A stretch of 64,000 bases of DNA, taken from assembly GCF_019232825.1 (NCBI RefSeq), contig NZ_JAFAND010000092.1, positions 30,642-94,641 of the forward strand, given 5' to 3'. Origin of the DNA: Paludibacterium sp. (GTDB lineage: Bacteria > Pseudomonadota > Gammaproteobacteria > Burkholderiales > Chromobacteriaceae). Every line of letters begins with the position of its first letter. Positions within the stretch are counted from its first letter, which is position 1. Positions 24,570 to 27,133 of the stretch are shown here, in pieces. The notes below the pieces were generated by a model. It was not told where the DNA came from and ran no database searches. It saw only the letters and a list, made by a program, of their open reading frames with translations. Both the position numbers and the translations under genes were made by a program.

Positions 24570-25850
24570 TCAGTGCTTGGCCCCTGCTCGGAAGTATTTG
24601 CGCATCGCTTGTGCCAGCAAGTGCTTGAGGGTATCGGTCTGTGCGGCGTGGTAGTGGTCGTATAGTCGTGGGGCCATCGGCAGGAAGACGTCCAGCATGG
24701 CGGGGTCGAACTGGCGTCCGCGCGCGTCTTGCATCATCGCCAGGGTCTGCTCCAACGCAAATGGCTCCTTATAAGGGCGGCGCGAGGTCAGCGCGTCGAA
24801 TACGTCGACGATGGTGAACAAGCGCGCATTGTATGGAATGGCGTCGCCCCGCAGCCCGCGCGGGTAGCCGCTGCCGTCGTATCGCTCGTGATGGCCGCCG
24901 ACGACCTCTTCCGTCCACTCGAGCCATTTCACTTCGCCGATGATCTGCACGCCGATATCCACATGCTGTTTCATCAGCGCGAACTCCTCGTCATCGAGCG
25001 CTCCGGGCTTGAGCAGTACGCGGTCGGCGATGCCGATCTTGCCGACGTCGTGGAGGAAGGCCCCGGCCATGAGGGCGATGACGTCGCGCGGCGTGCGGCC
25101 CAGTGCTTCAGCCAAGGCCACCGCATACAGCGTAACGCGATAGTTGTGGCTGTCGGTGTCGGCGTCGCGTTTGGCGATGGCGCTGCCGAGTACGCGCAGC
25201 AGTTCGACGTTGCTGTCGAGCAGGTTGTGACTGAGACGAACCGTATCCCGGTTGAGCGACACGACGACCGGGTAGATGGCCAGCGAGCTCATCGCCACGA
25301 CCAGCAATACGCCGATCAAGGTGTCGCGGATGCGCTGGGCGATGGCTTGCGCGGTTTCGGGCGGCACGAGATAAATCGCCTGAAAATAGCCTTGTGTCTG
25401 TCCGTAGCTATTTTGCAACGCGACCAGCGACTGGACGTAGATGCGTTCGCCAATACGCACGGTGCGCTGGCTGGGCGCCCGCAGCGGCGGCCAGTCTGCG
25501 GGGCGGATGGCGGGGCCGCGCCAGCTGGCGCCGAGCGGCCGCAAGGCGGGGTCGAACAAGCTGACGCCGACGAACGGCGTGCGTGGCAGCAGCTGATCGA
25601 GGCGGGATTGCAGCGTGCCGGGCGACTGGCGCCACAGTTCCGGGACACTGGTCTGGCGGAATTGCTGCACCGCGTCGGTGGATAGATTACGTACCCATTG
25701 ATCGATGCGGCCGGTTTCGAACTGCCAAGCGGTGATGCTGGCCGCCAGCGACAGCAGCAGCCACATGGGAACCAGCCGTTTCAGCAATGCGCGATGCACG
25801 TTGAGCCGGTGTGGGTGCAGTAGGTAGTCGAGGTGGCGGTACGAGATCAT
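24570..25850 (-). CDS. HD-GYP domain protein with N-terminal transmembrane/periplasmic sensor region
   Basis: FLHDVGKIGIADRVLLKPG; HHERYDGSGYPRGLRGDAIP; two hydrophobic segments flank a ~170-aa region. Confidence 0.93.
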   Translation of the reverse strand: MISYRHLDYLLHPHRLNVHRALLKRLVPMWLLLSLAASITAWQFETGRIDQWVRNLSTDAVQQFRQTSVPELWRQSPGTLQSRLDQLLPRTPFVGVSLFDPALRPLGASWRGPAIRPADWPPLRAPSQRTVRIGERIYVQSLVALQNSYGQTQGYFQAIYLVPPETAQAIAQRIRDTLIGVLLVVAMSSLAIYPVVVSLNRDTVRLSHNLLDSNVELLRVLGSAIAKRDADTDSHNYRVTLYAVALAEALGRTPRDVIALMAGAFLHDVGKIGIADRVLLKPGALDDEEFALMKQHVDIGVQIIGEVKWLEWTEEVVGGHHERYDGSGYPRGLRGDAIPYNARLFTIVDVFDALTSRRPYKEPFALEQTLAMMQDARGRQFDPAMLDVFLPMAPRLYDHYHAAQTDTLKHLLAQAMRKYFRAGAKH

Positions 25851-25914: not shown

Positions 25915-26388
25915 TCAGAAGCCGCGCGAACGTTGGGTGATGGAGAGCTTGGGGGGGCCGGGAAAGCGCACGTGCCATTTGCCGTCGATGAATTCGCGAA
26001 TGACGCGCAGCGTGCGCAAGGCGTTGAGGTCCGCCGGGTCGATCTGCTCGATGTCCATGATCGAGACGTCGCCCGGCAACGGATCGTTGGGCGTATCCTC
26101 GCATTTGACGAGCCCCAGGCTCCAGTTGGCGAAAATCGCCGCATCGATTTCCTGCCGCGCTAGCAGCAACAACTTGTAACGGGTCGTATCCTGGAAGACT
26201 TGGCGGTAGTAACGATCGACATCGTCATCCGGTCCCTCGATGACCTGGAGGAACTCCTGTCCCATCAGCACCATGACGCCGCTAATGCCGTCACGCTCGT
26301 TTCTGCGGCGACAGTCGGCCAAAAAGGCCGCCAGGTTCTGGGGGTCGGGCTCGGCGGCAACCGAGCCGCTGTAGATGAGGCGAATCAC
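25915..26388 (-). CDS. BLUF domain protein (flavin-site Tyr present) with C-terminal extension
   Basis: GTG start; VIRLIYSGS...RRRNERDGISGVMVLMGQEFLQVIEGP...FANWSLGL; conserved Tyr/Asn/Gln retained. Confidence 0.85.
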   Translation of the reverse strand: MIRLIYSGSVAAEPDPQNLAAFLADCRRRNERDGISGVMVLMGQEFLQVIEGPDDDVDRYYRQVFQDTTRYKLLLLARQEIDAAIFANWSLGLVKCEDTPNDPLPGDVSIMDIEQIDPADLNALRTLRVIREFIDGKWHVRFPGPPKLSITQRSRGF

Positions 26389-26443
26389 CGCATGACTCTT
26401 CTTCGAAGGGGGCGGGAAAACTCTATTTTTGCACCTCTGCTTA

Positions 26444-26464
26444 TGAAATGCAAAATGCATTTCA
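26444..26464. promoter_or_regulatory. Perfect inverted repeat upstream of BLUF gene 25915..26388
   Basis: tgaaatgca-aaa-tgcatttca. Confidence 0.5.
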
Positions 26465-26524
26465 AATGTCATTTTCTGTAATGTTTTCCTGCGGTTAGAG
26501 CGAGTGCCGTACGCCTTGGCCCAT

Positions 26525-27004
26525 CTAGAAGACGGGGCGCTGGCGGCGCAACACCACTGGCTGGGAGGGGTCGATCTGACTGCGGTGCCATTTGCCGCGA
26601 ATGAAGTCGTTGATCACTTTCAGTGTATAGCTTTCGTCGGCCGTCTTGCCGGTCATGTTCTGAACTTCCGCCATTGTCGGCGGCATGCCTTGGCCGGATT
26701 CCTCACCCGGTGGCGGTGGCTGGATCAGTCCAAGATGCCATTGGCCGAACAGGGGGGCGTTGATGAGGTGGCGCGCCACCAGCACCAGGCCATAGCGGTG
26801 GCTCTGGCTGCTGAGTTGGTCGTACATCTGTTCGACGGCGGCTTCGGGCCCCTCGATGATCTGCAGAAAATCCCGCCCCATCAGCACCATGGCGCCGCAC
26901 AGGCCGTTCCGCCGGTTGCGGGAACGGCTATCGCCCAGAAACGCATTAAGCTGGGCCGGGGAGGGAACGGCGGACAAGCTGCCGCTAAAAATCAGGCGTA
27001 TCAC
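26525..27004 (-). CDS. BLUF-like protein with Tyr to Phe change at the flavin site
   Basis: GTG start; VIRLIFSGS...RSRNRRNGLCGAMVLMGRDFLQIIEGP...FGQWHLGL; Phe codon TTT where paralog has TAC. Confidence 0.82.
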   Translation of the reverse strand: MIRLIFSGSLSAVPSPAQLNAFLGDSRSRNRRNGLCGAMVLMGRDFLQIIEGPEAAVEQMYDQLSSQSHRYGLVLVARHLINAPLFGQWHLGLIQPPPPGEESGQGMPPTMAEVQNMTGKTADESYTLKVINDFIRGKWHRSQIDPSQPVVLRRQRPVF

Positions 27005-27133
27005 GCAGGGTCCTGTGGATTGCAAAAATATGCATCTCAATTACGGTTATACATAATCTGCCAGTCAATGCCAGTTGACTCGTACGGCAAAAGTTATAAT
27101 GGCCGCTACAAATGTCGATATCAGTGAATCACT

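Follow-up and report, generated by a model that had tools for sequence, protein, structure and literature searches.

A naturally occurring Tyr-to-Phe BLUF paralogue, conserved beside a Tyr-type copy in Paludibacterium, that is probably a fixed partner or decoy rather than a light sensor

What might a BLUF protein be doing if it has lost the tyrosine by whose reactivity its family is usually defined? The question is raised by a locus from the genus Paludibacterium, lying in a stretch of 64,000 nucleotides (referred to here as the window), for which the original prediction proposed two adjoining BLUF genes on the minus strand. Both open reading frames were found: the upstream one (26525..27004, minus strand) encodes a short BLUF protein of 159 amino acids with a GTG start and has Phe6 at the catalytic Tyr position, while the downstream one (25915..26388, minus strand) encodes a short BLUF protein of 157 amino acids, also with a GTG start, that has Tyr6. 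These are called here the Phe copy and the Tyr copy. The two are 45% identical, and a third BLUF gene of the ordinary type is present on a separate contig of the same genome; the closest named loci are those of P. purpuratum CECT 8976 and P. yongneupense DSM 18731. A paralogue of this kind, natural and conserved next to a Tyr copy, offers a ready-made test of whether a BLUF protein can signal without light.

Membership of the family is clear for both proteins. Their scores against the Pfam BLUF model PF04940 are 50.5 bits (Phe copy) and 65 bits (Tyr copy), both above the curated cut-off of 25 bits, and the remaining flavin-site residues, Asn30, Gln48 and Trp89, are present in each, so that the predicted retention of Gln and Asn in the Phe copy holds and extends to the Trp. 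The two flavin contacts, Asn30 and Gln48, also occur in the orthologues of both copies in two other Paludibacterium genomes (G002 and G003). A structure model of the Phe copy (mean pLDDT 69.7, with 74-91 in the core and poor values for the linker at residues 97-118 and for the final 19 residues) gave matches of probability 1.00 to the structures of AppA, Slr1694/PixD and TePixD Y8F, all with the BLUF fold, and the weak model of the Tyr copy (pLDDT 55.8) gave the same matches; both models were built on six sequences and are silent on the state of the switch. Among the NCBIfam models none matches these BLUF proteins. By profile, fold and the Asn/Gln pair the Phe copy is therefore a member of the BLUF family, and what it lacks is the Tyr that marks photoactive members.

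The location of the substitution is equally well defined. As had been proposed, the Phe stands at the catalytic Tyr position: Phe6 corresponds to position 8 of PixD/Slr1694 from Synechocystis. A phmmer search pairs it with Phe8 of PDB entry 3MZI, which according to its record title is the crystallised Y8F mutant of PixD, and in a profile alignment (using a profile built from eight relatives) the same column holds both Tyr8 of wild-type Slr1694 (2HFN, RLIYSS) and the corresponding Phe of 3MZI (RLIFSS).

Laboratory mutants give some idea of what such a change may do. In the Tyr-to-Phe (YnF) mutants of AppA, PixD and OaPAC the normal photoreaction is lost and there is no photoactivation; instead, the excited flavin receives an electron from a Trp, accompanied by proton rocking via the Gln (PMC10799861). 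The original prediction that a Tyr-to-Phe BLUF protein is photoinactive stands as regards the normal photoreaction, but it needs refining: the PixD mutant, far from being simply blind, was reported to be locked, in darkness too, in the conformation that signals light (PMC5899715), and the record title of 3MZI includes the words “pseudo-Signaling State”. For the Phe copy, “blind” may therefore mean permanently “on”, although the same substitution may yield different states in different BLUF proteins. A harsher change, Y7A in BlsA, gave a protein that was insoluble on overexpression (PMC6695109). PixD Y8F (3MZI) and TePixD Y8F (8I98) resemble the Phe copy in having a BLUF fold and in carrying Phe for Tyr while retaining Gln and Asn, but they are laboratory mutants, whereas in the Phe copy the substitution is a natural one, has become fixed in three species and occurs next to a Tyr-type partner gene.

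It had been suggested that relatives be surveyed for such a Y/F pair, and the pair does recur in two other Paludibacterium species, G002 and G003, with the Phe copy followed by the Tyr copy in the same order and at the same location. At the catalytic site each of the three upstream copies has Phe (i.e. the Tyr expected of a photoactive BLUF protein is replaced in three of three species) and each of the three downstream copies has Tyr. The Phe copies of the two other species share 76% and 61% identity with that of the window, yet Asn30, Phe46, Gln48 and Trp89 are retained despite this divergence, and the Tyr-copy orthologues are about 82% identical to the window's Tyr copy. In P. yongneupense there is a tandem BLUF pair with Tyr in both copies, and a single Tyr-BLUF gene lies near the DUF2520 gene in another two genomes of Paludibacterium, as it does in two more genera of the family. 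Separately, the second copy of the P. yongneupense pair (L065:4717-5157) was seen to have lost the flavin-contact Asn, with Tyr and Gln retained.

As to how the pair arose, the three Phe copies form one clade in the tree (support 100/99), which joins the Tyr copies at 100/98, and this topology is most simply explained by a single duplication and a single Tyr-to-Phe change, both within part of Paludibacterium; the three species with a Phe copy represent one evolutionary event. The duplication is young, since other genera of the family have one Tyr-BLUF at the corresponding place. An alternative tree, in which the Phe copies are orthologues of the upstream gene of P. yongneupense, was rejected by the AU test (p 0.001), a result to be read with caution because of long branches. 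Evolution is faster among the Phe copies than among the Tyr copies, and at 23 positions the two sets show fixed differences. Values of dN/dS (NG86) were 0.19-0.32 for the Phe copies and 0.05-0.15 for the Tyr copies, as compared with 0.15-0.20 for the neighbouring HD-GYP gene and 0.22 (one pair) for DUF2520; judged from these, the Phe copy is under purifying selection, about as strong as that on neighbouring genes and weaker than that on the Tyr copy.

Conserved elements were also found upstream of each gene. The block GATTATGTATAAC (27046..27058, minus strand), which precedes the Phe copy, may represent a -10 region (TATAAC) with a promoter role, and GATTATGTATAA is identical in the three species within an otherwise poorly conserved spacer. 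The Tyr copy is preceded, at a distance of about 56 nt, by the palindrome TGAAATGCATTTTGCATTTCA (26444..26464, minus strand), a possible operator and the sole such site in the genome at up to 2 mismatches; it is strongly conserved, with a 16-base block, AAATGCATTTTGCATT, again identical in the three species. The blocks before the two copies look like separate control elements, suggesting that transcription may not be solely as one unit and that the two genes need not be expressed together. The idea that the two BLUF genes and the HD-GYP gene form a strict operon was not supported, given the upstream block possessed by each BLUF gene and the variable spacers (394 bp between the two BLUF genes in G002).

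The gene downstream of the Tyr copy (24570..25850, minus strand) encodes a protein of the HD-GYP c-di-GMP phosphodiesterase type (HD_5, 115 bits), the N-terminal part of which looks membrane-anchored. The order of Phe copy, Tyr copy and HD-GYP gene is retained in the three species, and in P. yongneupense the HD-GYP orthologue is unlinked. Gene position suggests the HD-GYP protein as a candidate output partner of the pair. BLUF-EAL proteins such as BlrP1 and YcgF are comparable in that a BLUF protein is tied to c-di-GMP signalling (PMC4844311), but in Paludibacterium the enzyme is a separate neighbouring protein and the link is one suggested by its position. A small cupredoxin-like gene was read by eye between the Tyr-BLUF and HD-GYP genes of G002 (L064, between 4658 and 5354).

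The proteins also have a conserved C-terminal tail: none of the 20 subfamily members compared, including a protein from another genus (G014), departs from Phe134, Gly137, Trp139 or Arg154, while Tyr6 and Asn30 vary, and a tail motif F-I/V/L-x-G-K/Q-W is shared with Chromobacteriaceae relatives. Loss of light-site residues recurs in the subfamily, other members having lost other flavin-site residues while retaining the tail. This pattern suggests a function in the tail that persists after the light switch is lost. PixD, BlrB and BlsA are likewise stand-alone BLUF domains with a short C-terminal extension, but the tail motif sets the Paludibacterium pair and its Chromobacteriaceae relatives apart; of these known proteins, PixD acts via a partner protein, PixE (PMC5899715), as does BlsA via Fur (PMC5955987). 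The G014 protein (L131:4868-5323) is a single BLUF at the place corresponding to that of the pair, without Tyr, Asn and Gln and with the C-terminal tail; it comes from a draft genome of 80% completeness in which the adjacent DUF2520 gene has a disrupted reading frame, so the triple loss calls for caution.

Taking sequence conservation together with the analogy to the PixD mutant, the Phe copy is probably not a light sensor but a partner or decoy that stays in one fixed state; on balance it is favoured, by a modest degree of belief, that it is a functional, photochemically locked, constitutive paralogue that works by means of the common fold or the tail, as partner or competitor of the Tyr copy. 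On this reading, a tandem duplication inside Paludibacterium would have given rise to the Phe copy, which would then have lost the Tyr-Gln-flavin switch and be held in one state regardless of light, and by analogy with PixD Y8F this state may well be “lit-like”. Flavin would presumably still be bound, and a normal photocycle would be absent. The protein could act on the Tyr copy by forming mixed oligomers with it, or by competing for a shared target via the conserved tail, so that the Phe copy would set a baseline to which the Tyr copy would add light control, perhaps of c-di-GMP via the neighbouring HD-GYP protein.

Several other explanations need to be weighed against this. The most mundane is that the Phe codon reflects an error of sequencing or assembly, which was a natural concern as long as the finding was based on a single genome, but which is refuted by the orthologues with Phe in two independently sequenced species, P. 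purpuratum CECT 8976 included; given the recurrence of the pair, the Phe copy is not a fresh pseudogene either, and the chance that such an error is responsible can be treated as negligible. A more serious contender, though still a rather unlikely one, is that the Phe copy is simply a redundant duplicate, losing its light function by drift and having no special role. One would then expect the faster evolution seen in the tree, the dN/dS values two to three times those of the Tyr copy, and the loss of other flavin-site residues in other members of the subfamily. However, three species still have an intact Phe copy although its sequence has diverged to 61-76% identity among them, its dN/dS is well below 1, its single substitution is kept alongside intact Asn, Gln and Trp, and its upstream block is conserved.

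The boldest reading, unlikely but worth keeping in mind, is a two-subunit photoreceptor: the Phe copy, as a natural pseudo-lit BLUF protein, would be an indispensable part of mixed oligomers that also contain the photoactive BLUF protein, the one being permanently “on” and the other switched by light. If the invariance of Phe134, Gly137 and Trp139 in all 20 subfamily members (the G014 protein too) is given most weight, the protein might be a flavin-free scaffold that works through its fold and tail only; this seems improbable, as the Asn30, Phe46, Gln48 and Trp89 that the Phe copies have kept would be needless without flavin. Slightly harder still to accept is a flavin-based redox or radical sensor, in which, without the Tyr, Trp89 and Gln48 would relay electrons to the flavin in its excited or reduced form, so that the protein would report redox state or high light instead of undergoing the usual BLUF switch. 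All the Phe copies have the Trp and Gln, and Trp does act as electron donor in the AppA, PixD and OaPAC YnF mutants (PMC10799861), but the chemistry of those mutants is not reported to yield a stable signalling state, and there is nothing redox-specific in the neighbourhood. Among known systems, a further likeness is seen in LOV proteins that lack their photoactive Cys or Gln: these relatives of flavin photoreceptors can signal without a supposedly essential residue (PMC5645311, PMC9098866), although LOV and BLUF proteins differ in both fold and chemistry.

The BLUF family and its engineered Y8F mutants were already known; what is new here is a natural, conserved Tyr-to-Phe BLUF protein next to a Tyr copy, and such a pair also allows one to ask what a “locked” state of the PixD Y8F type might be good for in a living cell. 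A literature search, in which subscription journals were thinly covered, found no published description of a natural Tyr-less BLUF protein. In a large census of the family the search pattern, Y-x(21,27)-[NG]...Q, required Tyr (PMC4844311), so that these Phe proteins would have been missed. A DNA pattern for the BLUF core allowing either Tyr or Phe, applied to class, order and phylum samples, gave Phe in 2 of 136 distinct matches (counted by hand from three lists), these being the window's copy and one from G801; as the pattern demands Asn and Gln, more degenerate members would escape it. A second set, aligned by HMM and weighted towards relatives, comprised 108 distinct BLUF sequences, 103 with Tyr and 5 with Phe (those of G801 and G014 and the three from Paludibacterium). 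Phages and viral contigs yielded no Phe-BLUF by the DNA pattern, and the protein was unmatched in phage records; matches in plasmids were limited to distant BLUF proteins, 27-31% identical. Phe as a conserved trait of other genera was considered and rejected, the G801 protein being treated as sporadic because a search of its genus gave no close orthologue. That protein (L130:4564-5061) is an unrelated natural Phe-BLUF with Asn, Gln and Trp retained, and its gene lies beside that of a PAS hybrid histidine kinase of 1139 amino acids.
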